Part shown: in pieces, positions 4,995 through 27,937 of the stretch
Position numbering within the stretch: the first letter of the stretch is position 1
How the letters are laid out: each line of letters begins with the position of its first letter
Source of the DNA: Pezizomycotina sp. ARF18
Taxonomy: Eukaryota; Ascomycota
Assembly (NCBI GenBank): GCA_002224055.1
Contig: AZLU01000354.1
Coordinates: 1-27,937 of the forward strand
Reading direction: 5' to 3'
Length of the DNA: 27,937 bases
Notes under the pieces: model-generated
Databases searched by the model: none
What the model was told of the DNA's origin: nothing
What the model saw: only the letters and a program-made list of their open reading frames with translations
Position numbers and translations under genes: made by a program

Positions 4995-5543
4995 CAGCAG
5001 CCGGTCCAATTTCCTTTGATGAGGTTCCAGCATTTCTTTTCGAAATTTGGCGGCCCATCTTGATTTTCCAATATGGTTCTCTTGTATCTTTCCCCAAGCT
5101 TGTGACTAAAGTTTCAGGCGGTTTCCTGTCTCTTTGTAGCTAAACGGAATATAAAACTTGGCTGCTTCTTCTCTGTTTCATATCCCAACTAGAAAAAATG
5201 GTTGATTGTTTATACATGCCACACTTTAGAAATAAAGCAAAGTCTATAGCACAAAATCTGATGTTTGTCTGTCTAAACAACCAATTGATAAATAAGGAAA
5301 AGGAAAGAAAAAAGTAATAAGGAATACTAACTCAAAGTACTCAAGTAATAATCAGCAAGATAAAATAAAATAAATAACAGATAAACTTTTCAATCATTCT
5401 ACTTTACACGATAAAAGGGGTAATATCCCGTGAAGCAAAAAGGTGGAAGACGGGGTCCGGGATTGATAATAAATAATACAACGCTTGCAACATTGGGCAA
5501 TTAGCTCGCGTCTTGTTTTCTAAGCTTTCTTGTTGTGCAGAAT
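4995..5543. other. Intergenic between convergent genes
   Basis: Shared 3' region of the HMG-box gene (+) and CTP synthase (-). An AATAAA hexamer at 5230-5235 could serve as poly(A) signal for the plus-strand transcript. From about 5280 the sequence is A-rich. A short open stretch at about 4980-5120 (AAGPISFDEVPAFLFEIW) is not recognised and could be a frame-shifted end of the HMG-box protein. Confidence 0.5.
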
Positions 5544-8319
5544 CTAGTGTGACTCTTTCTGTGAAGCCGTTTGCAATACAGTCCCTTTCCTGGAAGCTTC
5601 TAACAAGGAGTCTAACGAACCGCACGCCGATGCGATGAAACCCAGGTAGGGTTTGCTGGGTCTCAACACACGGGAGAGATATTCTGGATGGTACTGGACA
5701 CCAACAAACCAAGGGTGGTCTTTGAGTTCTAGTATCTCCATCCTTTTCCCTGAGGTATCTTTCCCACAAACGTAAGTCAGCTTCATGTAATTGCTGAACG
5801 TATTTATCGTTAACTTCGTATCGATGCCTATGACGTTCAAGTATTCTGTCCACTTGGCCATACAAAGTCTTCAATTTGGACCAATCCGAATCTTGCTGGA
5901 AAAGGGTTTCTCGAAGGCCTAACCTCATCGTGCCGCCCATAGTCGTTTTGTCAATTTCGGGCATGAATACGATGACGGGATTTTCCAAGGATGAAGGGTC
6001 GTCGACCAGCTCTTCTGAAAAGGCATCTACACGGCCTCAAAAGGTGGTGAGCTCATGAAGTAATATAGAGGGGCAAAGTCCAGTGTTAAGTTTAGTTCTC
6101 GATTGAGAATGATAATAACATTTGTTTAACAAATGAAGTAATGCAGCGTAAGATAGACAGACCTTTCAAGCCGCAGACGTTGCGGGCGTATTCGATAACG
6201 GCAATCTGCATCCCGAGACATATACCCAAATACGGGACCTGCGGGTGCGTGCCCAGTTTGCGGCGGCGATCATCCCTTCCGTACCCCTAATGCCGAAGCC
6301 TCCAGGAACTATGATCCCACTAAAAGAAACAAAGATAGAAATACCGGGTAAGTAAGAAAGAAAGAAAAATAGAGGAGGTAAAAAAAATAGATACAAGATA
6401 AAAGAGGGAAGAAGAGGAGGGAAGAAAGAGAAAAATGGAGAGAGTTGGGGGAGAACGTATAAAAATAAAGACGAAATGTGCCAGAGGGGCACACGGGCGC
6501 ATACTTAGCTGTGCAAACCATATGCCATGCTCTGTGGTAACCAGCTGGGTGCTAAGCTTCGTTTCTGCTTCAAAGGTCGGATGAATCAACCCATTCCAGA
6601 ATTAACTTCCTTCCACAATGCATGGCGGCGTGCTCCAAGCTTTTGATAACGGAAAGGTAGCTATCATGCAGCGAGGTGTATTTCCCCACTAGCGTCACTT
6701 TGACCTCATCATGAAGGATCGTAGAGGCATTCACGAGAGATTTCCACTCTGACCATATGCTCTCGCCTTTGACTCGCAAAGATTGGGGAATATTCAGCCT
6801 CTCGAGCCGTAGGATTTCCGAAAGCAGAGGAACAAGCGTTGCTGTTCAAGGAGCAACGGTACCCTGTACGTTAGCCCGACGTCAACGACCTGCACACATC
6901 CTCAGGCTCCACTTGACAGAACATCGCTATCTTATCAACAGTCGACTTGGTAAGGGGTTCGGCGCAACGACATGCGATCTGTAAGACATGTCTTACGTCA
7001 GTTTATTCGCAAACTGTGCAATTTACTTGAAAGAAAGCGCTCGGAGTTGGTTTGTTTATTCATCCTTACAAGATCTGGCTGGAGGCCAAGTTTACGGGCA
7101 TCGCGTATGGCAGCTTGAGTAGGCTTCGTCTTCTGCTCCCCGGAGATAACTGGAACCAGACTGACGTGAATTGGAGGAAATTCCGTTTCCCAGCTCTGTA
7201 TTTTAACTGTCTCAAAGCTTCGACGAATGGTGCTGACTCGATATCACAACGTACCACCAAGCTCAATTATACATATGTCCGGCTGTTCGTTTGTGTCGTC
7301 AACGGGTATCTTAGCTACCCGCTCAATCCAATCTTGTATGGCGTCCGTTATATGCGGGACCACTTGTACTGTCCTTCCTAAATATTTGCCTTTCCTCTGA
7401 GCATTCCAAAGCCCCATCGCACCTGTCAGCCACGACTCCGATCCTGCTTGAAAGTATATTACGCTCAGTCCGGTCATATTATATGGAGAGCCCCGATGCC
7501 TCCCGACTGTGAACTTGAACCATTGCCACACACCTCTCGCTCAATGACCTGAGAATATATCTTTCCAGTTGTGATATTGTTTTCTCGCGTTAATGTTACA
7601 TTCAAATATCTCTCGTAGTTACCGAGGTCGAGGTCAACTTCTCCGCCATCATCGAGGACGAAAACTTCACCGTGTCTGCCAGGGAAAAATTAAATAAGAA
7701 ATATCAGCACCCGGTACCTTATTTGTTCCCGTTCTTTAGATCTATAACAGATCCGTTGAGATCGCATGGCGGAGGAAGTTTTTTGGGAGGCAAGGGTTAT
7801 TATATCTGACTCTGTTGGTGCCATCGTTCCAGCATCGATATTCATGTAAGGGTCGATCTTTATGGCGGAAACGTGCTGACCAAAATACTAGTTAGCCACA
7901 GGTTGGTGAACTAGCCGCTAGAGGGAAAGTTTAAAGAGCTATTCGAGGTGGGGAGGTAGCGGCAAGGATTTATCACACAATCAGGCACATATCTTTAATC
8001 CATGGTTTTGAGCAACAACCCCGTCGAAGAAGCTAAAATATAAGGGACGATAGTCAGCGCAAGAAAAAAAAAGGTAAAAAGGTAAAAAGGTTCGGTCTTT
8101 TTAATAGCAGAGGAATAGTGGATTCTATACCAATGACACCCTTTCCAATGCCGCTAATGACGCCTTCATTTTACAAGCCAGGTAAGATTGTCGAAAGCAG
8201 AGTGGGCTGTTAGTAACTATATGAATACCCTTATAAGAAGTGCGACCTCCAAGCCATCTGAAGATAACGGGGAAGTGTTGACCAAATCACGAACCTCCAG
8301 ATACGAGAACGTATTTCAT
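5544..8319 (-). CDS. URA7: CTP synthase (frameshifted, nine exons)
   Basis: Makes CTP from UTP, ATP and glutamine, the last step of pyrimidine nucleotide synthesis; cytosolic and filament-forming in fungi. Exons read from high to low: 8319-8295, 8163-8131, 8032-7993, 7875-7811, 7675-7534, 7396-7070, 6978-6505, 6319-6163 and 6026-5544, about 582 residues, the usual length. Start is MKYVLVSGG; the P-loop [10 protein letters not shown] spans intron 1. Other synthase-domain motifs are [42 protein letters not shown] and [15 protein letters not shown]. The glutaminase domain has [12 protein letters not shown], the nucleophile Cys in GICLGMQ, and the His-Glu pair in QYHPEYLSR. The frame breaks near 5769, 6240, 6547, 6573, 6830, 6896, 7171, 7247, 7250 and 8001; all are one-base changes, mostly losses in short runs. 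The donor of intron 3 (7992) reads AT rather than GT. Identity is certain; whether the locus is functional is not. Confidence 0.95.
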
Positions 8320-9733: not shown

Positions 9734-12325
9734 TTGGTCGCCATCCGAAAACCAGGTTTATCTTCAATTAGCCCCCGTTGCCCGGACCTGGTCATCTCCC
9801 TCTGGGACTTTTCCCATGTCGGCAAGGGCCGAATTGTTCGGCCACGATGGCCGAAGAGGGGTGGATTCAGTTTCCCATCCCCGACCTCTTCCTACTCCCT
9901 CTCGCCAAATGGTTTCTCCTCTCACGAACCTTCTCCCTTCCGCACCCGCCAGCCCCCGACGCCGGCTCCCAGCCCAACACCTCAGATTCATAGGCTCCCG
10001 ACCTGGTCCACAGCTAATGAGAATGAAGACACTTTCCTCAGGGATGCACGGCCTCACTTTCTGCGTCTGGATACGTCCGAGAAACAGAGGTTCTTAGCTG
10101 AGATACTCAATCTGTGCGATTCGCAGCAACTTAGCTTCGTGCTCAACTATGTTTCGCCTCGCTTGAAGAAGGATCCCTTCAAAACATTACCAAATGAGCT
10201 CTGTCTTCGAGTATGTTTGTCCTGACAGATGATAACCATCCTTTGATGACCAGAACCCCCTTTCCTTTCCTGGCCTTTGTCCCTTGTTATTCCCACACTT
10301 TAGATATTTTCTGGTAAATGTTTGACCTTTGGTTTGCAGTACTATCATTCATCGAGGACCCTAAAACGCTTGCTCGCGCATCACAGTGTCGAAACAATGG
10401 CACGCCCTTCTCAACGATGACCTTACATGGAAAAAGCTTTGCGAAAAGCACAGCTATCGGAGACTGAGCGGAACAAGCGTCAATCCTTTTTCTGCCTCGT
10501 CATTTATACGTAACGAAACATCCACATTCGGGACTATAATGGACGCCCCAAAGACGCTCCCAAAGACGCCTCATTTGGTCCCGTAACAACCTCCTCGTCC
10601 GGCTTCACGTCTGAGATAACATCACAATACTCTTTACCCCGCCGGCGGCCGAAGCCGATGAGCTATAAATCTCATTTCAAGCAAAGGTATATGGTTGAGA
10701 CTGCATGGCGCAGTGGGGCCGGGCCATCGCGCGACACATAACTCCGACCAAGGGTCGTAACATCTTTACATCTTACTGCCAACTATATCATTGTCGCACT
10801 GGACAACGCAAAAATACATGTATTTGCGGAGGATGGGAGATTCATGAGGACCTTGTCGGGACACGTAATGGAGTGTGGGCTATGGTTCCCTGGGATGATA
10901 TTCTCGCAAGCGGTGGTTGCGATCGGGACGTTCGTGTCTGGAACATGGCGACTGGGTGAGTAAAACATTTAATCACCTTTAAAGAACTATTTTCCGTTCA
11001 GGTTTATGTAAACAGACTTTCAATGTAACGTTGTTCTTTCTCCCCTTGCTCCTGCTAAATTCCAAGCCTTGGTTCGTACTATTAGGCAATGCACTCAGAT
11101 TCTTCGAGTCACACGTCTACCGTTCGTTGTCTCAAGATGAGTGATCCCAAAACCGCCATCTCTGGCTCTCGAGATACAACCCTCCGTATATGGGACATCG
11201 AAAAAGGAGTCTGTCTCAACGTTCTGATTGGACACCAAGCCAGTGTCCGCTGCTTGGAAATACATGGTGACTTGTCGTTAGTGGAAGTTACGATACTACC
11301 GCAAAAATTTGGAGCATATCTCAAGGAACCTGTCTTCGAACCCTTTCAGGCCATTTCAGCCAGATATATGCGATAGCTTTTGACGGCGTGAGATTGCTAC
11401 CGGGTCTTTAGATACATCTGTAAGAATATGGGATCCGCACACCGGGTAAGGGCGCTCGCTTCTCCAATCCCTAGTGAAGGTGGTTTCCATATGATCTGGT
11501 AGACGATAGAATGAATAATAGAAGGAAGATCAAGAGAGGAAAGCAAAGAGTACTAGAAGTAGAACAAGGAGGACATGCAGCAGAGGGAGAAGAAGGGGGG
11601 GAAGATGAAGCGAATTTTCACTGGTACTTCTGCTAACGTTTATTTCTCTTCCGGTCGACCTCTAGAAACTGTCAAGCAGTGCTACAGGGTCATACGTCCT
11701 TGTGGGACAACTTCAAATGAGAGGGAATTCCCTGGTTACTGGAGGATCGGATGGATCCGTTCGTGTCTGGAGCCTTGAGAAGATGCAGTGCGTCCATAGA
11801 CTTGGTGCACACGATAACAGTGTCACATCTTTACAGTTCGACGAGACTCGGATAGTGAGTGGGGGTAGCGATGGTAGAGTAAAGGTGTGGGATCTGAGAT
11901 CCGGCACCCTTGTACGAGAGCTTTCAAGCCCCGCCGAAGCTGTTTGGAGAGTAGCATTTGAGGAGAAAAAGCAGTGATCCTAGCATCTAGGGCGGGTCGC
12001 ACAACGATGGAGGTAAGTGCACATGCCTACTGAAAAGAAGCGGCCGTTATCAGGTGCTAATATAACGGCTTCTCTTTGCATATAAACGACGTAGGTATTT
12101 TCATTCTCTCCACCGCCAGAGGCATTTACGGATGCATACCGAGCGAGCAGCCCAACAGGATCGGACATGTCTGGCATGGGATTTACGATGATGACGATAA
12201 TGGGTCAAACTTCGCGGAGCAGTGAGATAGCCCCTGGCGTAACATTTATTTTTCAATCTTTTGTAAGATCCCGTTTTTTATGGAATCCCGATCGCTTTAC
12301 TTCATCTTCACATATTGCAAAATAA
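9734..12325 (+). CDS. CDC4: F-box/WD40 protein Cdc4, SCF ubiquitin ligase substrate receptor (frameshifted)
   Basis: Recruits phosphorylated substrates such as cyclin-kinase inhibitors to the SCF ubiquitin ligase; binds Skp1 through its F-box; nuclear. Exons about 9734-10210, 10340-10955, 11086-11445, 11666-12012 and 12095-12325, about 675 residues. The F-box is split by intron 1: DPFKTLPNELCLR then LSFIEDPKTLARAS and KQWHALLNDDLTWKKLCEKH. Eight WD40 blades follow, for example GGCDRDVRVWNMATG, SGSRDTTLRIWDIEKG, GHQASVRCLEIHGD, GSLDTSVRIWD, GGSDGSVRVWSLEK and SGGSDGRVKVWDLRSG, the last blade ending AEAVWRVAFEEKK. The conserved Arg residues that read the phosphodegron sit in these blades. One-base breaks are needed near 10211, 10387, 10716, 10756, 10870, 11107, 11274, 11392, 11702 and 11970; nine of the ten are a lost G. 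The N-terminus is Pro/Ser-rich and the start is a choice among several ATGs; the C-terminal end is tentative. Confidence 0.92.
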
Positions 12326-13084: not shown

Positions 13085-14861
13085 TCATCTCTGCGGGAAC
13101 AAAGCTCCTCCAGCACGCCGAGTCAAAGCCTTTTCGATAACATGCTTTGGCAGATTGGGGAGCTCATATAGTTCGACTGGGGTAACTGCGTACGTCACGG
13201 GGGGGTTTGAAAGCCCTGGCCATATATCGAAAGGTAGATATTCGCCATAGTCCGTTCTGAAACTCTCTCGATCCATAGTATCCTCTAAAGGAATGGAAAA
13301 GAACGTTAGCGCGTGTGCATGTTCCTTGAGGAAATATTCTCTATAGGCGCAGGGGACTTAAGGGGGTAAAAATGAACCGTCCCGATGACCGCCCGTGCAA
13401 ACCACGGCGAACAACGGCGAATGAGTTAAACCGATTTCCTTTTTCCATTTCTCCAATGAGAGACATACCTTCGTTTAGGTTCTGTACTTTGGCCAAGGCT
13501 TCCGCGATGATTTTTTCCTTCCTTTTTTGCATCCCTAACCGCCTGCCCACTTCGACTATCAAGGCGTCATAAGCGTTAGCGAAAAAAATGTAATGTTCCG
13601 CTAGATGATGCATTTCAGATAGTCTATCTTTGATCGAGGTTTGATAATCAGCCTGTTGCGCTTGAAAATCTTTCGTCCGGGCGATGCACGAAAGAATATT
13701 CCCCCGGAACTGCTCCATGATGGAGAAATTGTCCACTGCGTCTCGGTAGCTAGCATCCAGGTCGTTGACGAAACGCTGCACTGCAGTAGCGGTGGCCTCC
13801 ATTTCTCCTAGACGTTCCTTGATTTCATTCACTACATCATCTACTTCCGCAGCATCCCGTTCGAGCACTTCAATCATTTCTGCACGCTCTGTGGACGACA
13901 GCAATGTCGAATTGGAGCCGGTAACTTCCGAGTTTACACTGATGTGGTTACTTGATTCAGTCTGTTTCAGCGCTAACGAACACTGGTCATAATGTCGAGC
14001 GAGGGATTCAAGAAGAGACGCCATGGCGGATGCGTGATCCTCCAAGGAATGTAGTAAAGGAGAAAGCGAGGTCGCGGGTGGGAGGGATAGCGAGGAGGTC
14101 GGCGTTGGCAAATTATTGATCGCATTCTGCAAGGATTCTAGCTCCGTGTCAAAGCCTTGTAGCGCGGAAACGAGATTACTCTCCGACTCCTGCACGAATT
14201 ATCCCTTTTACCTTTAGCAAAACGTGTGAGATTGACCTTGTCCGGAGTTGATGGAGACTTCTACCTGTACCTGATCGATAGAATACCTTAACTGCGTTCT
14301 TAGGTTTTCTATGCCCTGGTCATCAACAAAATCATGCAAGGTCCTTTGCTCGTCGGTAGACGCACTGAACGCCGGATCCACAGGTGTTACCTGCAGCAGC
14401 GATAAGATCTCGTTCAACCTTGAGTCCGCAGAATCAAGATCTTTTAATGTGCCCTGGTAGTAGGTCGTTAAATAATAGTACCTGTAATAAATATATCACG
14501 AATCTCCAGAAGTGAATGGAGAGACGTGGAGGAGGAGTTTGACGATGGATTGGTAGAATACGATACGGGTTTAGTATGGTGAATAGGAGAGTATTCCTAA
14601 TACCTGAAATTCCTGCGCGCAAAGTCTCTTGAGGAATGCATGACCGCATTTATCTGCTTTACGACGGACAGCTGATCTTGTAAAGGCCCTCCGCAAGAAG
14701 ACGCACCTGGAGGCAACCACCGTCGCTTCCTGCAGGGCCGCTCTCGCAGAATCCACAAGGTCATTGGCTCTGGTGCAGAGGGCAACAGACGTAAGAGACC
14801 GTTTCGCGTTGATAAACCAGGTTGTGATGTCTCCGGTAGACCTCGCGCTGTGAGGCGACAT
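13085..14861 (-). CDS. ATG17: Autophagy-related protein 17
   Basis: Scaffold of the Atg1 kinase complex (with Atg13, Atg29 and Atg31) that organises the phagophore assembly site during starvation-induced autophagy; cytosolic, peripheral to the vacuole. Exons from high to low: 14861-14604, 14481-14265, 14189-13469 and 13284-13085; introns 122, 75 and 184 bases, all GT-AG. Together 1,396 bases, one more than 465 codons, matching a single extra T at about 14692. The N-terminus reads ITTWFINAKRSLTSVALC and LVDSARAALQEATVVASR; then QLSVVKQINAVMHSSRDFAR, TLHDFVDDQGIENLR, a long helical middle (ERAEMIEVLERDAAEVDDVV, AEHYIFFANAYDALIVEVGR) and the family C-terminal signature FRTDYGEYLPFDIWPGL. The predicted 464 residues are normal for fungal Atg17. 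The rest of the frame is intact, unlike its neighbours. Start chosen at the first ATG, a few residues before the conserved block. Confidence 0.94.
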
Positions 14862-15550: not shown

Positions 15551-16138
15551 CGATTAAATTCTTTTCTAATATCGAATAATATATAACTTGTCAGTTTAGA
15601 GGTAAATAAACATCCTTACTTGTAAGTCGAGCGTAGTCAAAATCGCCTTTCTTTATACCAAGTAATACCCCGTGTTTAAACCAGTAAATACTGTCAGCGG
15701 GGGCGTGCAATAGGGGTAACTAAGCTATTATTAAGCTATTATTTCATTTTATTGGATTAGACAGGGTTAGCTCTATTTATTTTTAGTAGTCACCTATATT
15801 TATTATCTTCTTATTAGCTATACCTAGTTTCTTTTTCTTTTATATCGCTAGGTAGATAATATTATATAGTTAAATAAATATTATAGTTTTAGTTATTTTC
15901 TTATTCTCTTTTATTATTATAGTATATACTAAGGATCTAGGATAGGTAATACGTATTATAGTTTAAGGTATTTTTTCTTTTTCTTTTAAAGTAATATTAA
16001 TAGTTTTAGTAATAGCTAAGGATTAGGGGAGCTATTATGTAAACCCTCTAGCTTTATTAATAAATATTTCTTTATAAGAGGATCTATTAGCTTAGAACCT
16101 TTATAAATAATTATTAGCTTTTTATAAGATTGATGAGT
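15545..16138. other. Border of the gene island; AT-rich RIP-type DNA
   Basis: Composition shifts at about 15,700-15,780 from normal to AT-rich with almost no CA or TG. A short tandem (TAAGCTATTAT twice, 15724-15744) marks the transition. No gene visible. Confidence 0.55.
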
Positions 16139-16310
16139 TGTTATGCTGGTTCCTGGCCTCCGGCCACCGGCATGCTGGCCCATGCGGGTATAAGGGGTAC
16201 CTATACCCTTCTACGAACCTTATAGGTTATATAACCCAACGGCTACCCCCTATTATATATACCCCTTCATACCTATGAACCTACCTCTTACTTATAGGGT
16301 AAGCCTTATA
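16139..16310 (+). repeat. Left LTR-like repeat
   Basis: 172 bases. Shares with the right copy long blocks such as CCCTTCTACGAACC and ACCCCCTATTATATA. Differences are nearly all C/T or G/A. Its 3' end is the more mutated part (CTTATAGGGTAAGCCTTATA against CCCACAGGGTGAGCCTTACA). Confidence 0.75.
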
Positions 16311-16641
16311 TTATAACCTATACCCTAGTAGGGAGGTAGCCGTAGCTTCGCGGTTATAAAGGTAGTAGCTAGCGCTAGGCTGGCGCTACAAAGCTAGCGT
16401 AGGTACGGGGGCACGGCAGTAGTAGCAGCGGCTACGAGGCCGTGCCTATTCCCACGTCGGTAGCGGCGAGTCTCCACGGTCGGTAGCGGTAAGGCTCCGC
16501 GGACGGTAGCTAAGGCTCGCGGACGGTAGCGGCAAGGCCCTACGGTCGTAGCGGCAAGGCCCTACGGTCGGTAGCGGTAAGGCCATGCCCACGAGCTACG
16601 GACGGCGGCAACGAAGGCTTTAGAAGGGAGGAGGGGAAGAG

Positions 16642-16658
16642 CGTAGCTAAAAGCTACG
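16642..16658 (+). repeat. Hairpin 1 (stem CGTAGCT, loop AAA)
   Basis: Perfect 7-base stem CGTAGCT/AGCTACG with loop AAA, at the end of the first tandem unit. Confidence 0.8.
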
Positions 16659-16884
16659 TATAGCTAGACCTACGACGGTCCCCTATAGCCGGTAGCGTAA
16701 GGCTATACTATAAGCCTTCTTTGTGGCGATAGTACCGTAGTACCGTGTCTACGAGTCTCTACGGTCGTTAGCGCGGTAAGGCTCTTACGGACGGTAGTAG
16801 TAAGGCCCGTAGACGGTAGCGGTAAGGCCGTGCTACGAGCTATAAACGGCAGCAACGAAGGCTTTAAAGAAAAAAAGGAAAGAG

Positions 16885-16901
16885 CGTAGCTAGAAGCTAC
16901 G
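16885..16901 (+). repeat. Hairpin 2 (stem CGTAGCT, loop AGA)
   Basis: Same perfect stem, loop AGA, at the end of the second unit. Confidence 0.8.
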
Positions 16902-17066
16902 TATAGCTAGTACCTACGAGTCTCTAATAGCGTAGCGGTAGGTCCGCAGACGGTAGCAGTAAGGCCCACGGCCGGTGCGGTAAGGCCTACGAACGGTAGC
17001 GGTAAGGGCTTATACTATAAGCTACGGATAGCGGCCGCGAAGGCCTTAAAAGGAGGAGGGAAAGAG

Positions 17067-17083
17067 CGTAGCTAGGAGCTACG
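17067..17083 (+). repeat. Hairpin 3 (stem CGTAGCT, loop AGG)
   Basis: Same perfect stem, loop AGG, at the end of the third unit. Confidence 0.8.
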
Positions 17084-17270
17084 TATAATTGGTAGAGTAC
17101 CGCTTTAAAGAACTAACTAAGATAGTACTAAAGGTAGTAGACGGATACTACTACGGGAACAACGGTAGCTAAAATAGTGCGCGAAGGTAGTAGATAGGGT
17201 ACTACTACGAAGGACTAGTAGCTATAGGAATAACCCTTATAGGAGCGTCAGCGGCTAGCTAGGCCGTAGT

Positions 17271-17283
17271 AAGGAGGAAAAGG
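17271..17283 (+). other. Polypurine tract
   Basis: AAGGAGGAAAAGG, 13 purines ending two bases before the right LTR-like repeat. This is the position and composition expected for the plus-strand primer of an LTR element. Confidence 0.6.
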
Positions 17284-17285
17284 TA

Positions 17286-17460
17286 TATTATACTAGTTCC
17301 TAGCTTCCGGCTACCGGTTATACCGACCTATACGGGTATAAAGGGGTACCCATACCCTTCTACGAACCCTTATAGGTTAGATAACCCAACGGGCTACCCC
17401 CTATTATATACACCCCTTCGTACCTACAACCTACCTCTCACCCACAGGGTGAGCCTTACA
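17286..17460 (+). repeat. Right LTR-like repeat
   Basis: 175 bases. Its 5' end is the more mutated part (TATTATACTAG against TGTTATGCTGG in the left copy), while its 3' end keeps CA and TG steps. Confidence 0.75.
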
Positions 17461-17545
17461 TAGTCTTAAAAGAGTATTAAAAGCTTAGGCTAAGTAGCTT
17501 ACTCTAGTATATATATAGAATCTAGCTCGGGTAAGTTTTAGCTAA

Positions 17546-17823: not shown

Positions 17824-18039
17824 TAGTGTTCGAGGTCGGGTCAGAGGTACATGTGTGGTTAAAAAAGACCTTTATTTTTAGTAGGTTCGCTAAGGAAAAA
17901 TTGGTGTTCCGTAACTATAATGTACCGCTACCCTGAGGCTTATATATATAGTTTGAAACAATTTCGCTCGCCTAGCAAAATAGATAAAAAACAATTATAG
18001 AATTTTATTTTAATTAGACTATACCCGGTCTGAACACTA
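17824..18039. mobile_element. hAT-like MITE, copy 2
   Basis: 216 bases, alignable with 22-243 along its whole length. It begins TAGTGTTCGAGGTCGGGTC and ends GAACACTA. It differs from copy 1 by scattered one-base losses and transitions. The 8-base flanks (ACTTTTAG left, CCTTTATT right) are only partly alike, so the target duplication is decayed or lost. Same orientation as copy 1. Confidence 0.8.
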
Positions 18040-19408
18040 CCTTTATTTTTTTCTACTTATAAAAACTTAATACCTTCTAGTTTTTTTTACCTTATAAAAA
18101 CTTAATACTCTAGTTTTCTTCTACCTTATAAAAACTTAATATCTTTTAAAAATATTTACCTTTAATAAAATTACATCTTTAATTTTTTAATATCTTTAAC
18201 GTACTATAGGATTAATTTATCTTTTTAAATGTATTGTAAGGGACTTGCTAGCACTCGGTATATCGTAGGCCTCTTACTAATTTATAGAATATTATTAGGT
18301 AAAAGGTATATTTAGTATACTTAAAAGAACTAATAGTAAACTAGTAAAGTTAGACCTATAATATTAATATATCCTTTAGGGTAGTAACTCTATTAATCTA
18401 TAAACTAGTATGTAACCTCTTAAGCCTACTGCGAGATATCTAATATCTTTTTTCTTAAAATTTCTAGTTTTATATATAATAGTATTCTAGTAAAATATTA
18501 ATAAATAAAAAAAGATAAAACTATATATAAAAAATTTATTTACGTAAGCGCCTATAATAGCTTAAGTAGTATATCTTAGAGTATATTAGCGTAATTATAA
18601 TTAAAATAAAAGTCTAATTTTTCTAGAAATACTTTATTTATTTAATATATAATATACCCGTAAACTTATATTACTATTTTTTTTAGCGCGGTAGTATGCG
18701 CCTTAATAAAAGAATTATTTAACGTACTTTATTAATTAACTTTATAGAAAGATGTTTTATAACGCGTTATAATACGTTCCGCAAGTTTCTATAAAAAGAC
18801 TTTAACTTAATAGGTAGTAATTTATATTATATTATATCGCGCTTTATAGAGTTTCTTATTAAAAGACATTTATTATATTTCTATTTTAGAAGCGTTTATA
18901 TAATAGTTATAAGCTATAGCTATTTACTTTAAAGAATATTAAGCAAGACGTAATATTATAGTATAATAAATATCTTTTTAATATTAAAAAAATCTTATTA
19001 AAGTAAAGAAGAATTTTTTAAAAAAATTTTTTTAAGAAAGTTCTCTTTTTCTATATACGATATACTCGTATTAGTTTCTCTTTTTTTTAGATTAATCTCT
19101 ACTTTAGTTCTTAAAGTTCTTTAAAAAAAATTTCTATATCTTCTTTTTTTTTATAAAACTATATATTTAACTTTTTTTCGCGGTATAGCGACCTCTTATA
19201 ACATATTATTAATCTTATTAAGGTAATTATTATTAGTATTAATAGTCTCTTCTAGTACTAATATAAATATACTGCCGCCGGCTACGCCTATTATTATAAT
19301 AGTAACGCTAGTATACTCGCTATATCGCGCGTCAATATATATTAAGTTTAAAAATGCATTAACTATACCGCTATAATTCTTTAGACTAAGTTCTAGTTTA
19401 TTAATAAT

Positions 19409-19510
19409 AATTTTTAATAAATAGTCTATATTAATAATACGCTTTATCTAATATTATAATAATTTTTAATATAATGTCTATAATTAAATATGCGTTTTAT
19501 CTAATATTAT
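19409..19510. repeat. Imperfect tandem duplication, about 52 bases
   Basis: Units 19409-19460 and 19461-19510 share AATTTTTAATA, GTCTATA and TTTATCTAATATTAT in the same order, with scattered differences. Confidence 0.65.
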
Positions 19511-21477
19511 ATAAATACCTTTTCTATAATTATAACTATTTTAAGATAATTTTATAGCCACCGATACTACTTTAGATAAAGTCTAAATCCCTATTATATA
19601 GATATATACTAATAGCTATACGAACCGCGTCTAGCGCTAAAGATCGTCTTACTATCTATATTATATTAACTACTACTGTCAATAACTTTTTATTATTATT
19701 TCTAACGCCGGAGTTCTTAATATCCTTACTATAATATCGCGTAGCTCTAATAAGCCGTTATTAGAATTAACTCATAATTATGCTAATCTCTTCTATTAAC
19801 CTAATACTATAATATACCGCGTATATACTTAGCGCTAACTACGCTAGCGTCTATAATACTTTTTACTCTCTTTGCCGGCTTAGTACCTATAATAGCTACG
19901 TATATACTTAGCGCTAATTATATCGAGATTATAATAATCTTATGCCTTTTATCTATACGTAAGTATAATATAATCTTATTATAAGGTATAATAGTATATA
20001 TTGTTAATATAAATAGCTATAAAAGATATAGTTATAGATATAAAAGAAGAACTTACCGCGGGAGGTATCTAAAACGGTAAGCATAATATAGATATAAGTA
20101 AGATAGTATGTAATGCTATATTCTTATACTTTCTTATTTTATTTTATATTTTAGATAAAGCTAGAAATAGTAATAGATAAGTAAAAATTTTTTTATATAT
20201 ATAATTTTAGAAGAAAGATTTTTTAAATTTATTTAATATTTAAATTTTATATAAATCTTTTCTCTTTTTTATAATATATATAGACTTAACTAGCCTCGCT
20301 ACTTAATAAGATAATATATTATAAGTTTTTTAGATTTAGTTTTATTTTAGTATATTTTATAGTTAAAATTTTTTATTATATATTTTTTTTACTAGTTTAC
20401 TATAATTAATCTTAGCTTAGATAGACTTAAGTAAAATATTATTTAAATAAAACTTTAATAATAAGATATAAAATATATTATAATTTTTATACTAAAAAGA
20501 GTTATAGTTTATACGCTTAGAATTAATTCATTTAATAATCTGAAAAGATTTAAGTAATACACTTTTAGTTTTAAGCTAGTCGTTAAGTTTTATATTTTAA
20601 TAAAGTATTATTTTTTCTTTATTTAAAATATTAGCTATTTAGCGTAGATTTATTAGTAAGTACACGTACTTATTTTAACTATTTAGAATTTTTATCTATA
20701 TTTTTTATAATTTTAACTAATTTCTTTAGTCTTTTTTTACTATTATATAGTTTACTAAACTATGTTTAGTATCGTTTAACGCGGGCCTTATAGCCGTACT
20801 TTATTTAAAGGAGATATCTTAATAAATATTAGTATATATATCTAAAAAAAATTCTCTAGTCCGAGACACTATAAGAACTCTTAGGATCTTAGAAGTCTTA
20901 TAGAATAACTCGATTCTATTAGATATAAGTATATTAACTAATTTTATAAGATAGCGTTAAGCGAGAGTTATTTATATAGATAAACAAGAGTTAATTATTT
21001 AACGAAAAAAGTTATTATACTAACTTTTAAAATAAATTATTTTTTATATAATCTTATATTTTTTTTTTCTTTTTAATAATTTAATAAAAGATTTTAAAAT
21101 ATAAATAAATCTCTAAGAGTTTTGTTAATAAATAATATTTTATAAGATAAATTAAATATAATATTTCTTAAAATTTCTTTTTATAAAATTAATTTTAAAA
21201 AAAAGATTATATTTCTAAAAGTTATTATATTTATTATAAGAGTTAAAAGAATATATTAAAATCTAATATAATTTAGCTAATAATCTATTATATAGTATTA
21301 TTATCTTTTTTAAAACTTTTAGTCGTCATAAAAGTATCTTTTAAATAAAATAATTTTATTTAGCGTTACTTTATTATAATCTAGTACTTCTCGCTAATAA
21401 TTAGAACAAGGTAATAGTGAAATCTTTCACTAAATAAGCTCGAAAAGCATGTACGGTATTACTATAGAGAATTATTA

Positions 21478-21675
21478 TTATATATTATATAAAATACTAT
21501 TAATCTCTATAGAATAAAGCTTTATATCTATATAGGATAATACTCTATATCTATAAAATAATACATAACTATATAGAATATTACTATTAATTATATAGAA
21601 TAATAAATTATATATATATAAAAATACTATTATATTATATAAAATAATACTCTTATATTTATAGAAGTATTAACA
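21478..21675. repeat. Degenerate short tandem array
   Basis: About seven or eight loosely conserved units of roughly 25-30 bases built on the words ATATAGAATAATACT and TATATCTATA. Strongly AT-rich, no coding sense. Confidence 0.45.
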
Positions 21676-21680
21676 CTATT

Positions 21681-21810
21681 TACTACGCTTTCTCCTCAGA
21701 TCTACACGTTAAAGAATAATTCTTTATCTATAAAAAATATACGCGTTTATTACTACGCTTTTTATATAGATATACGCGTTATAGAAAATCTTTATCTATA
21801 AAGAGCTATA
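21681..21810. repeat. Imperfect tandem duplication, about 70 bases
   Basis: Units starting at 21681 and 21751 both begin TACTACGCTTT, share an ACGCGTT or ACACGTT word, and end TCTTTATCTATAAA. The first still has CA steps (CTCAGATCTACACG) where the second has TA, as expected from RIP acting unevenly. Confidence 0.6.
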
Positions 21811-23802
21811 TTCCTTTCTACGGATATATACTTTATAAAAAGTTCTTTAGCTATAAATATAGGTTCTATAAATGTTAGCTCCTTAGCGATAACGTTAATA
21901 CGTATTCTCTATAGCTTAAAAGATAAAATATAATATCTTAGAAATAAAAAATAGTATTTACGTAATAAGAATTAAAAAAGAAGATTACTCTATTTCTCTC
22001 TTAAAGCTACGTATTAATATCGTAAATATAGATTAATAATTTATTAAAGTATATAAAATAGAAATAAAAAGGCTATAAAAAAGGCGATTCCTTATCATAT
22101 AGATAAAATAATAGACTTTCCTTAGCTATAAATATTACTATATTAAAGCGGCGTTTTCTAAATCTTTTATTTCTAGACTATAGAGATAAAAATATAAAGA
22201 ATAAAGCTATTAGAGTATAAAAATCTACTTTATATATACGCCGTCCTACGTAGCTTATATTTTTTATTTTAAATATTATAGCAGTAAGTAAAAAATATAT
22301 TAAGCGCTACTATTAGACTTCTTATAATATCGATATATAATAAAAAGAATATAATAAAAAAATATAAAGTAGTAAATAGAATTATAGAGGTTTAAATTAT
22401 TAATTCTAAAGATAATTAATAAGTCGTTCTATATATTATTTATTCTATATAAATAGAAATCTTTTTTTTTTTATTTATAATTTTTATTTATTCCTTCTAT
22501 TATATCTTTATAGCTTATATCTATATTCTTATCGCTAGATTTCTAAATAATAGCCTAATTATAGCTTATACGCAAATTATATAGGCTACTAATAATAATA
22601 GATAAAATTAAAATAACGCCTAATACTAATAGACTACTATTAGTTAGACTTTACGCGTTAGTATAGGCTAGATTTAGGCGCTAATTATTAGTAGTTTTAC
22701 TAACGCTTACTATAATAGTTAGCTTAAAAGAAGTTAGTATAATATATAGATAGGAATATATAAGAATAATTTTATTTTAGTTTTATATTAAAGTTAAATT
22801 CTCTTATATAAAGTAGCTACCTTCTACTAGTATATATTTAGATATATACTCGCTATATCTAGGGTCTATAGTATTAGGATATATATGGCGAGTACGTTAG
22901 ATATAGTAAAGCCTACTTATTTAAAGATAAATATCTATATATTTTAAAAGATTATATCTAGTTTTATATTCTTTAAAGCTAATAAATATATATAAATCTT
23001 TATAGTATTTATATCTTAATTCACGCTATATATATAGAGGTTTATTTTAGATATACTCGTTATCGCTTTAGATAATAATAGCGTTTCTAGCGATACCGTA
23101 CGCCTAAGCAACTTAGTAATAATTATAAATAGCCGGGTATAACGTATCTAATAACTTAAATAAGGTAGTAGCTATTATTCTATATATAGAGTAAATAAAA
23201 CGTCGTTAAACTTATAAAAACAATTACTTTTTATACTACTCTATATTATATTTATTATTATCGTTAACGTAGCTATATAGGCTTAAATTATTATAAATAT
23301 AGTAACTATTTTTTATTTAAAACTACCTTTTAAGAATAAGAGTTAATATTATCTTCTAACTTGTTCGTATAGTATAATATTAAGAGACTTTTTATAATAA
23401 TCTATAAAGGTAAACGCGATATAGTCTTATAAAAGTAAAATAATACTCGTATTAGATATGATTAATCTATAGATAAACTTAACGTAACTCTATAGACGCT
23501 AGACTACTAGGTATAATTAGAATAGATATTATAATAAGCAAAAACGTTAAAAAGACGTATATTACGTACGTATAAAAGGCTCTATATATATCTAGATAAA
23601 AAGAATAATACTAGAAAAGCTCTAACCGTTATAATATCTAGCTAGAGCGTAAAAAAAAATAGAGTTTATTTTTAATAGCTTTAACGTATATAGTACCGAT
23701 AGGTATCGCTATATAATTTATATATTACTTTTTTTTATCTCTATTCTATTCTAATAGCTAATAATATTATTTATATAAGATTAGTTTTATTAGCTAGGCT
23801 AA

Positions 23803-23823
23803 TTTTTTTTTTTTTTTTTTTTT
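23803..23823. repeat. Poly-T tract (21)
   Basis: Uninterrupted T run inside the AT-rich block. Confidence 0.7.
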
Positions 23824-26800
23824 CTTTTTTTTAAGATACTTAGAATATCGGCTATATATATTAGTTATCTAGCTAGTTTAATTTTTTATCTAAAGAGCTA
23901 GCGTATTAAAATATACTTTTTTTATAATCTAGCTATTATATTCTAGCCGCTATTTATGTTCTTTTAGGCGTTTAAACGGCTAAGATTTAATAATATAATA
24001 TTTTTAGACGAAAAATTGTAGATATAACTATAAAGGTAATATCGATTATTATTTTTTATTTTCTATATCTATTTTTACCTTACTATCGTTATTCCTTAAT
24101 ATTTATATATAGTTATCGTCTAAGCTAATACTAACGATAGCTATATTCGCTTATAACTTTATCTTCTAATACTTAAATCTTTTTATAAACGATAATCGAT
24201 ATAATCTTATATAACTATCTATAAGAGAGGATTAATATAATTAATTAAACTCTACTAAAGATACTCTAGTAGTTTTTTTATAGTTTTAGAATATATTATA
24301 AACGTAGTCTAAAGCTCTATTATTAATTTAATATCGTTAGAGATTCTTTATAGTATATATAAGCGCTAATAGATAGTAAGACTATCTATAAAAAATTATA
24401 AGCGATATCTAAAGATACCCGCTAGCTTTATATTTAATACGGGCCGTAATTAGTAACTATAAAACGCGTAACTAGTCTCGTAACCTATTTAGCTTATTAA
24501 GATATATTAACTAACTAATATATTTTAGATAAAGAGCTATATATTTTAAAATTATACTTATAAGTAGGGTTAAAATATTTAAAAAACTAATCTCTAAAGA
24601 GCGTTAAGAAAATTTTTTTATATTAATACTATCTTTAGCTCTTAGTAATATATTTAAAACTTCTTCTAAATTAGTATTTTTAACGTATATTTATTATTAG
24701 CTTAATATACGCCGTAAATCGTCTATATAAATTAAAGCTAGAAATATTCTATATTTTTAAATTTTTATCTTAGAGCTACCTATATAGCGAGTCTCCGATT
24801 AAAGAAGCTACGTAAATCGTTTATAAGAACTATAGAGATCTCTATAAATAAAAGAAATTTTATCTAAAAAAATATACTATAAACGCGATAAATAAGTCTA
24901 TATATGCTAACTAACTATTAATTTTTTATCTAAAAGAGATACTTTATCTTACGTAGCCGCTTTTAAAAGTTTTTATATAATTTTATTACTTAAATTAAAT
25001 TATTATCTTCTAAGCTAAATTAAAATATAGTATATAGCGTTAGCTATAAATATTAAAAAGTATATACTTATATAGGTAATAATTAAGTAAAATATTAACG
25101 CTCTATTAGCGCGCTTAGACTATATTTAGAACGTATTAAATAGCCTTGTAATAAATATAACTTATTACTATTAGCTATACTATTAATAATTAAGTTATAA
25201 AGGCTTTTTTTTCTTTTAACTCGGCGTAAGGTTATAGTAGTCTATTATTATAAGTTAAAGAAGCTTATTAGCTAAAATTTAAAATCTATAGATCTACGTA
25301 CTCTAGATCTTTCGCCTCTAAAGGTTATTTTTCTATCCTCTTTATCTATATAGCTCTATCTAACGGTAATTAACGTTCTCTTTACTAAATCTTACTAATT
25401 ATATTCTAGTTATAATCTATATTATTTATTAATTATCTAGATTAGACTACTATTAATAGCTTATCGTTAGCTCTACTACCTATTACGGGCTATAATTTTC
25501 TAACTCTTAAGAAGTAGTCGCTTTTTTTTTTTAGATATTATCTTAAAGATAAGATAATTTACTAATTATATATTAAATTTTTATTTACTATTATCTTTAA
25601 GAATCTTTTTTCTCTTAGATAGAGATTTAAAGAGTCTTTAATTCTTAATCTATCACTATTACTAAAAAGATAATAATTTTAATAGAAACTCTTATCTATT
25701 AACGCTATTAGCTAAAAAAAAATTATTCTCGTCCTACGCGTAAAGATCGCGAAAGGTATATATAGTAAGGCTATAGTTTATAAAAACTTAAGCTTTAGAG
25801 CTAGTATGATCTAATATAAAAATTATAATATAATTTTATTAGTTTTCTACTACTATAATAGTTTAAAATATACTATATCTCGTTATTTACGCTATTTTTT
25901 ATTAAAAGATTCTATCTAGTCTTTTTATATTTATAATATTAGAATTTATATCTAATCTTTAAATATCGTATAGCGGTATATTTTAATCTTACCTAACGTT
26001 TAATGTACTTATCTATTATTAATAAACTATTATATAAATATAAAAATCTTTATTATTATCTTAATTCTCTATAGTTAAATTATATTTAATCTAACGCGAG
26101 ATTTTTTATAAGAAAGATATATATTATTAGCTAGTTTATTTTAATTAGCCTAGACCTATTAAAATATACGCGGCTTCTAGTAGCTAATATCCCTTTCTAT
26201 AGAGAGATAAATATATTTTTCTTATTATATTAAAAATTAGACGCTATTTAGCGTCTTCGCTAATAAAGGCTTCTTAAAATATTTTTAGAGCTTTTAAAAG
26301 GCGTCTTTACTTAACTATATATTTAGCTATATAGATAAGTACGGTATAGAAAGTTAAAATAATCTAAAAGTTATAGTTTACTCTCTATATCTAAAATAAT
26401 AGAGTAAAATAAATTTATCTACTTATTATATTTATCTTTAATAGTTAATAAACCTATTTTTATTTTAGATACGCTATAATTTACTTTAAGATATACTACT
26501 AAGAATAATTAAATTAATAGATATTAATCTTGTTTAATTTACTTATAAATTCTTATACGTAAGTAATAGCGGCTATAGATATAATATTATACGCGGTTAT
26601 TAAAGAAGTTAAATCCTAATCTACGTTTATATTATTAGTAAGATTTATAGACTTTTAAATGATAAAAAATCTACTATTATTAAAGCTAAGTTAAAATTAT
26701 AACGCGAGTAGTAATAAGCTCTTTATTAAAAAATATTTTTAGCTTAAGCGATCTACTATATTCTCTATCTTTAAGCTAGAAATATTAGAAGCGTCCTTAA

Positions 26801-27937
26801 TCTATAAAAGCTATATATATATCTAAAGCCTCAAACTACTACTTATAGCGATATTATAATTAAAACTTTTAAACGTAAATTCTTTTTTACTATCGTTTTT
26901 ATAAAGATCTTAAACTATTTTTTTAAATATTAAGCGGCGATATATAGATATTTAATAAAGTTTTAATTCTTTTTTAATAAGCGTTATCTATAGATAAAGT
27001 ACTTAAGTTTAATAGTTTAGGCTCGTTACTCTAGAAGTAAAATTTTTAATATACTCGCTATTACTTAATTAGATCGTATAAAGATCGCTAGTAGGTATTA
27101 CTATAGAAAATATAAAAAAAATACTTAGGTATTAGTTTTATAGATAAAGAGTAGCTATTTTTTTTTTTAATACTAAAAAAGATAATTTTTAATATATTAT
27201 GTTATTATAAAATCACTTTAACTTAGTTCGCTATTATAATTAGGGTTTATATATCTTTAAAAACTCTTTACTATTATTTTTAGGTTATTTTTTATAAAGA
27301 TCTTACTTATATCTATTATCTACTATTATAATCTAGAATAATAGTAAACTATATAAATTTAAATCTTACTAAAGTGGCTCTCGCGGTATTTAATAGATAT
27401 TTAAAATAATTTATATATTAATTTTAATAATTTAATTACTATATCTAAAGATTATACTTACTAAAAGAAAAGAGCGTTAGAAAGGCGCGAGTTATATAGT
27501 TAATGGTATAAATTTATTTATAAATTACTTGACAATCTTAGATACTTAACTATTAATATTTTATCGTCGTCTTTTAAGCTATTTTTACTATTTATATAGT
27601 TCTTTATCTATAGTATAGCTAGAATATTAGATAAGTATTTTAATATTCTAAAAGCGTTACTTTTTATTAGTATTAACTCGCGTACGTAGCGCTCTGCTAT
27701 AATAAATAAAAATATATTATACGTTTTTTCTTTTTTTTTAGTTTAACGCGCCGTCTAGCGTTTTTATAGTCTTTTCGCGGCCTCTTAGGCGGCTAGATCT
27801 TAATATATTAGAAATATTTAGCCGGTAGGATTATTATTATCTATAATATTAATTATCTAAATAATACTAAAAGAGTCTTTATCGCTATACTATATTTCTT
27901 TAGAGCTTATAAGTTTATTTATTAACGTTAATCTTCT

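Follow-up and report, generated by a model that had tools for sequence, protein, structure and literature searches.

A low-copy, noncoding LTR element of TRIM-like form, with tandem arrays as its interior, in a RIP-affected ascomycete genome

Positions 16139-17460 of the DNA analysed here hold a noncoding LTR element of 1322 bp, probably one RIP-decayed member of a TRIM-type retroelement family that is non-autonomous and low in copy number, and that would have moved by the mechanism set out below. The window, meaning the whole stretch of 27,937 nucleotides that was analysed, is contig C354 of Pezizomycotina sp. ARF18, and genome searches were performed on the 46.36-Mb assembly of 408 contigs. 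We regard the element as a genuine retroelement parasite, ordinary in kind but unusual in form.

The left LTR lies at 16139-16310 on the forward strand (172 bp, TGTTATGC...CCTTATA) and the right LTR at 17286-17460 on the same strand (175 bp, TATTATAC...CCTTACA), coordinates that agree exactly with the direct repeats of about 175 bases and the 1.3-kb element described in an earlier, sequence-only reading of this DNA. The pair is 85.9% identical, with transitions accounting for 23 of the 24 mismatches; the alignment used the slice 16140-16312 for the left LTR, which leaves the mismatch count unaffected. The TG...CA borders reported earlier are directly visible at one end of each LTR, as TG at the start of the left LTR (TGTTATGC) and CA at the end of the right LTR (CCTTACA). 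The remaining ends, those of the left LTR end and the right LTR start, read TA, and TATTATAC is the RIPped form of TGTTATGC. When LTRs of the family are compared, CA or TG stands in one copy where another reads TA, which is the RIP pattern. A polypurine tract (AAGGAGGAAAAGG, 17271-17283, + strand) is found two bases from the start of the right LTR, where the earlier reading had placed it, and the corresponding stretches of the C348 and C247 copies are also purine-rich. Read from the sequence, a TATA-box-like TATAAGG in the left LTR (16189-16195, + strand) is a putative promoter, with TATAAAGG as its counterpart in the solo LTR.

A search with the left LTR showed the family to comprise six LTRs at four loci, and the same six were recovered with the solo LTR. 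A degenerate LTR-start pattern, allowing up to 3 mismatches, found five of the six genome-wide with no other match (0 in the control); the left LTR of C348 was missed because of a deletion at that place. Contig C348 carries two LTRs in a second full-length copy of 1332 bp, with the 5-bp TSD ATATT on both sides. On C89 there is a lone 175-bp LTR with the 5-bp TSD GGTAG on both sides, that is, a solo LTR, which is the usual outcome of LTR-LTR recombination. The fourth locus, on C247, has a right LTR and a partial interior ended by the contig end. The target duplications that the sequence-only reading had proposed to look for are thus present at C348 and C89, but not around the window copy, which is flanked by TGAGT and TAGTC. 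The strongest proof of an LTR element, as opposed to a tandem-repeat curiosity, comes from the TSD-bearing solo LTR and the TSD-flanked full copy, which also back the original description of a TRIM-like LTR element with an array interior. It had also been proposed that LTRs and array occurring apart would speak against a single element. The array was found only between family LTRs, at both of the two loci where it could be seen (C247 ends earlier), and the sole LTR without an array is the TSD-flanked solo LTR, which is not an independent occurrence of that kind. As a separate observation, the C348 copy is bracketed by a 173-bp repeat, 89% identical and in inverted orientation (L065 5395-5566 and 8927-9092); the second 173-bp repeat lies at the C348 contig end, and this is perhaps a further short repeat family.

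Between the LTRs, a GC-rich array (16452-17008, + strand) is built from modules of about 22-23 bp in three higher-order units. Allowing up to 3 mismatches, 10 copies of the module CGGTAGCGGTAAGGC occur in 16458-17008 and 11 in the window (one outside the array, at 7954), compared with a mean of 0.38 and a maximum of 3 in 100 shuffles of the window. The array that had been noticed is therefore real, but the count of about 13 modules given with it needs a looser criterion. The division into three units holds, as three tails consisting of a purine run and a CGTAGCT...AGCTACG inverted repeat (repeat family D5, + strand) are found at 16624-16662, 16867-16905 and 17049-17087. Further downstream, a degenerate second array (17105-17232, + strand) is seen in the window by alignment only, with no call from Tandem Repeats Finder. 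In the C348 element there are 7 CGGTAGCGGTAAGGC modules (0.16 expected in its 9-kb locus) and, by alignment, two tails, with about 130 bases absent and about 133 additional bases in the first block; the visible part of C247 stops short of this array. Tandem Repeats Finder gives the second array a unit of about 50 bp, repeated 3.4 times in C348 and, as far as the contig reaches, 2.9 times in C247. Since array copy numbers differ among the copies, the arrays vary within the family. Genome-wide, with at most 1 mismatch, there are 34 matches to CGGTAGCGGTAAGGC and 21 to the reversed control; 6 of the 34 are in the window copy and 2 in the C348 copy, leaving 26. The sole exact match outside (C133) is isolated, as are the three one-mismatch ones that were inspected. 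Outside the family, the module is near background, and as an array it is found only between family LTRs.

The interior looks noncoding. Pfam was used to scan 10 of the 11 stop-free frames of at least 40 aa that overlap the element, and none reached the cut-off; the only match listed for these frames scored 13.1 bits against a cut-off of 32.1. The statement that gag and pol relics are lacking thus holds for the 10 frames scanned. Of the 35 indels that distinguish the two full copies, only 3 have a length divisible by 3. A search of 16100-17500 against Rfam found nothing at E<=1. Folding compared with shuffles gave z values of -0.03 for the LTR-to-leader stretch, -0.96 for the whole array (20 shuffles), -0.67 and -0.56 for the leader, and -1.83 and -1.05 for the second array, while the tails lay between -0.2 and -0.9 for the + strand and between -1.5 and -2.0 for the - strand. 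Among 32 sliding 80-nt windows (60 shuffles each), three were at z <=-2.4, the lowest being -3.5 at 16379. Because array and leader fold no better than shuffles, an RNA role for the array is unsupported except by that one local window; and because RIP of palindromes can mimic paired changes, we claim no RNA structure. The stretch 16379-16458 adjoins the inverted word GCTAGCGCTAG (16368-16388), and a hairpin may form here, with the primer site on one side and the array on the other.

Dinucleotide ratios indicate how heavily the family has been mutated. TpA/ApT and (CpA+TpG)/(ApC+GpT) are 5.3 and 0.21 in the interior of the window copy (54% GC), 3.25 and 0.13 in the C348 interior, and 4.0 and 0.15 in the C247 part; on the gene side of the window they are 0.85 and 1.13. 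The contrast between 56% GC at 16501-17000 and about 20% in the adjoining arm might suggest that the GC-rich core is young or was shielded from RIP, and both ideas were raised in the sequence-only reading. The ratios contradict them: CpA/TpG odds in the core are 0.24, near the values of the near flanks (0.31 and 0.22; 0.10 in the far arm), and TpA odds of 2.63 exceed those of both near flanks and the far arm, so that a young or shielded core has next to no probability. The core is strongly RIPped, not protected. Its high GC content persists because most of the G and C left in it belong to steps other than CpA/TpG (CG odds 1.32, GC odds 1.36), which fits a third suggestion of the same reading, that the core is rich in steps that RIP does not attack.

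For the solo LTR, TpA/ApT is 1.50, (CpA+TpG)/(ApC+GpT) is 0.96 and the CA/TG odds are 1.27. The usual cut-offs for the two RIP indices are 0.89 and 1.03, and by these the solo LTR still counts as slightly touched; we call it hardly RIPped because it has kept CA/TG where the other LTRs read TA. The length threshold for RIP is some 400 bp. A dependence of RIP on repeat length, as described in the available part of PMC12543289, would let a solo LTR of 175 bp escape. The first 60 or so bases of the left LTR (16139-16198) are also little RIPped, with many CA/TG kept and a (CpA+TpG)/(ApC+GpT) of 2.00, and are perhaps the edge of a RIP tract. On the other side of the element, 18001-27937 is an AT-rich arm of 21% GC in which CpA/TpG are nearly gone; it contains tandem arrays at 18038-18145, 19399-19511 and 21478-21679.

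Beside the left LTR, the word TATAACCTATA (16312-16322, + strand), 1 nt past the LTR and identical in C348, is a putative primer-binding site. Over 11 nt it is complementary to TATAGGTTATA in the left LTR (16221-16231, LTR positions 83-93, + strand), a putative self-primer and transcript start that begins 32 nt downstream of the start of TATAAGG. In Tf1, the first 11 bases of the RNA pair with the primer-binding site and are then cut off as primer (PMC7175516, in the part available), and the arrangement seen here has the geometry of self-priming of that type, which we consider likely for this element. The 11-nt complement of the window left LTR was matched by 3 of 2000 shuffles, and when the solo LTR was used with RIP modelled on both sides, 10 of 2000 shuffles were as good. 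The interior has 961 14-mers, and 10 nt is reached by just three of them, which overlap one another at the primer site. A 20-nt comparison with the letters unmodelled gave the window left LTR a result equalled by 6 of 1000 shuffles, and gave the window right LTR a 9-nt complement (80 of 1000 shuffles as good) and the two C348 LTRs complements of 6 and 7 nt (equalled by 875 and 295 of 1000). As three of the four full-copy LTRs thus carry no signal as they stand, RIP must be invoked; the C348 site reaches 11 nt only with RIP modelled on the solo LTR. The same comparison for a Copia element of this genome with a tRNA-type site gave 5 nt, or 6 nt with RIP modelled.

We also looked for a helper. 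Copia reverse transcriptases are common in the assembly, with at least 57 RVT_2 matches, of which 30 loci were examined. Gypsy ones are few, with RVT_1 at 2 loci off C50 (at least 5 matches in all, 3 of them on C50) and at least 6 RT_RNaseH_2 matches. To our knowledge, the known self-primed elements are Gypsy, and the small number of Gypsy reverse transcriptases speaks somewhat against a Tf1-like helper. Across 38 retroelement loci, the 19-base RIPped LTR start never matched with fewer than 4 mismatches, nor the 28-base U5-PBS word with fewer than 9. Genome-wide, the U5-PBS junction with at most 2 mismatches found the two full copies and one further match, compared with 4 in the control. The assembly thus yielded neither a helper nor an autonomous relative with the same LTR start or U5-PBS junction, and the full-length partner with matching LTRs that the earlier reading hoped for did not appear there; a helper is absent, diverged or unassembled. 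A young Copia element was considered as helper and rejected, since its LTR ends are unrelated and its primer site is different. This element is present at L050 707-5614 (C275) and L051 700-5607 (C28), in copies of about 4.9 kb that are 99.7% mutually identical, unRIPped to the eye and bounded by LTRs of about 313 bp; they are recent insertions amid many stop-riddled Copia remains. Two Gypsy-type regions, L063 (C132) and L064 (C209), are 98-99% identical over about 8 kb or more at about 45% GC, with a gag-like frame (by eye) after pol and with LTRs that are outside the stretches examined or unrecognised. At L022 1339-1691 (C14), a 180-bp tandem duplication, 93% identical, lies in or beside a Copia reverse-transcriptase match.

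Copia elements dominate this genome, and a tRNA, or a fragment of one, might have served as primer for the same non-autonomous element, its helper perhaps being a Copia; the LTR complement would then be a by-product of TA-rich words made by RIP. The primer site is TA-rich after RIP, and the unmodelled complement is just 6-9 nt in three of the four full-copy LTRs. The young Copia carries GGTTATGAGCCCGG beside its LTR, which we take to be an initiator-tRNA fragment site, and the site of our element likewise starts with TTAT. Fungal Helenus TRIMs, which make 5-bp TSDs, use tRNA sites and probably Copia helpers, according to the part of PMC10886601 available. Against this, the 14 nt that follow the left LTR, which are the same in the two full copies, contain neither TGG nor its RIPped form TAG, and the best tRNA complement among 20 loci is 7 nt, or 8 nt with RIP modelled. 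The tRNA set came from 1606 candidates, of which 63 were scored, with at least 54 matches; 20 of the 21 off C50 were compared, and 17 were named by ARAGORN. No tRNA primer site was recognised beside the left LTR with these 20 loci, a set that does not include the initiator tRNA. Moreover, the only interior complement of at least 10 nt adjoins the LTR, and its partner begins 32 nt after the TATA box. Priming by tRNA is accordingly a possible but clearly weaker reading than self-priming.

The origin of the element can also be explained in another way, namely that it arose by deletion from a single autonomous element and was then amplified one or two times, its array having grown in the deletion scar, and that it never formed a TRIM lineage of its own. 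That just four loci were found is in keeping with this, and for plant TRIMs an origin from larger LTR elements has been traced (PMC4717578, as far as the available text goes). No autonomous relative with the same LTR start or U5-PBS junction was found in the assembly, a weak counter-argument since the assembly is broken at repeats, and the interior frames scanned gave no gag or pol match, which is also weak; we consider such a derivative a minority possibility, rather unlikely on present evidence. A tandem-repeat locus that mimics an LTR element is far less probable still. Misclassification of such loci is a known error (in the part of PMC12477816 available), and both the tandem repeats of the interior and the missing TSD of the window copy would suit it, but two perfect 5-bp TSDs elsewhere, a solo LTR, TG...CA ends and a purine tract make it very improbable.

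The preferred reading is thus a non-autonomous TRIM-type element, for which we propose the following cycle. RNA polymerase II would transcribe the element from the LTR TATA box, and its RNA would be packaged and copied by proteins of an autonomous LTR element. First-strand synthesis may be primed, as in Tf1, by the first 11 or so nucleotides of the RNA itself on the site beside the left LTR, the option we lean towards for this step. An integrase would then insert the copy with a 5-bp TSD, and array copy number would shift by slippage, template switching or unequal exchange. RIP has since stripped CpA/TpG from the array-bearing copies, though hardly from the short solo LTR. As for the array, the likeliest of its putative functions would be that of a spacer, or of a packaging or dimerisation signal in cis that has been multiplied, through which the RNA would stay usable by the helper. 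A bolder version, which we hold to be improbable, would see a fungal TRIM lineage with tRNA-free self-priming and variable arrays that are a multiplied packaging or dimerisation signal, such that the element consists of promoter, self-primer, signal array and purine tract.

Like TRIM and SMART elements (terminal-repeat retrotransposons in miniature), the element has a short LTR at each end, a purine tract, an interior without coding sequence, a 5-bp TSD and a solo LTR, and would presumably need a helper, but it differs in having two tandem arrays as interior and no recognised tRNA site. TRIMs are defined by a total length of <1000 bp in the available part of PMC10886601, and as the two full copies measure 1322 bp (window) and 1332 bp (C348), we call the element TRIM-like and not a TRIM by that definition. 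Of the other TRIM features, it has short TG...CA LTRs, a TSD (C348 and C89), no coding capacity and a polypurine tract, and TRIMs of 1172-1449 bp carrying gene fragments have been accepted (PMC4717578, available text). TRIMs are known from an ascomycete and from basidiomycetes (PMC4112212 and PMC5689174, both in part). The Helenus TRIMs (311-1263 bp in the part of PMC10886601 available) are likewise fungal and noncoding with 5-bp TSDs, but they have a tRNA-like sequence in the LTR and tRNA primer sites, whereas Rfam had no match in 16100-17500, although a strongly decayed tRNA-like sequence could escape it. On present evidence the element is not Helenus.

Self-primed elements of the Tf1 type are autonomous, with gag-pol. 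Our element is like those listed in the available part of PMC6934838 in that its RNA 5' end and the LTR-adjacent site are proposed to pair over 11 nt, and differs in that no gag-pol was matched in it, while theirs is of the Gypsy type; it can work like them without being one. Variable tandem arrays inside an LTR element are also found in the Retand Gypsy elements, some members of which are non-autonomous, but these are plant elements with gene-bearing internal regions of 7.4-12.9 kb and with arrays mostly between pol and the 3' LTR (PMC11963269, in part). The fungal GalEa Copia elements have no tRNA primer-binding site, just as none was recognised here, and are alike in the 5-bp TSD and in LTRs of the form TGT...CA, but in them a conserved palindrome, mostly CTGATCAGT or CTAATTAGT, follows the LTR directly as part of a hairpin (PMC5445492, in part). 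By a reading of the alignment this palindrome was not seen in our element, both full copies of which read TTATAACCTATACC after the LTR.

In the fungal papers, as far as their available text goes, TRIMs are counted by annotation pipelines with little anatomy given. Among the matches listed in the literature searched, which was mainly open-access and available in part, we found no fungal TRIM whose interior is a tandem array, nor any TRIM for which self-priming had been demonstrated; self-priming of a bivalve TRIM is discussed without being settled in the available part of PMC6934838. The present element is so small that it can show which parts are required of a mobilised RNA, and it suggests that a gene-less element can use self-priming. 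It also demonstrates that RIP can act thoroughly on GC-rich sequence lying in an AT-rich arm, making GC content an unsafe sign of youth or protection.

Two further observations concern other parts of the assembly. Contig C50 (231,088 bp; L015, L016 and L019) carries 33 of the at least 54 tRNA matches, and its 3 of the at least 5 RVT_1 matches include one with an in-frame TGA; it resembles a mitochondrial genome, one of unusual size and with reverse transcriptases that may lie in introns. The gene side of the window contains an Atg17-like autophagy protein and a WD40 protein, at 13344-14198 (- strand) and 11666-11974 (+ strand), together with a frame at 5407-6036 that looks CTP-synthase-like but gave no Pfam match.
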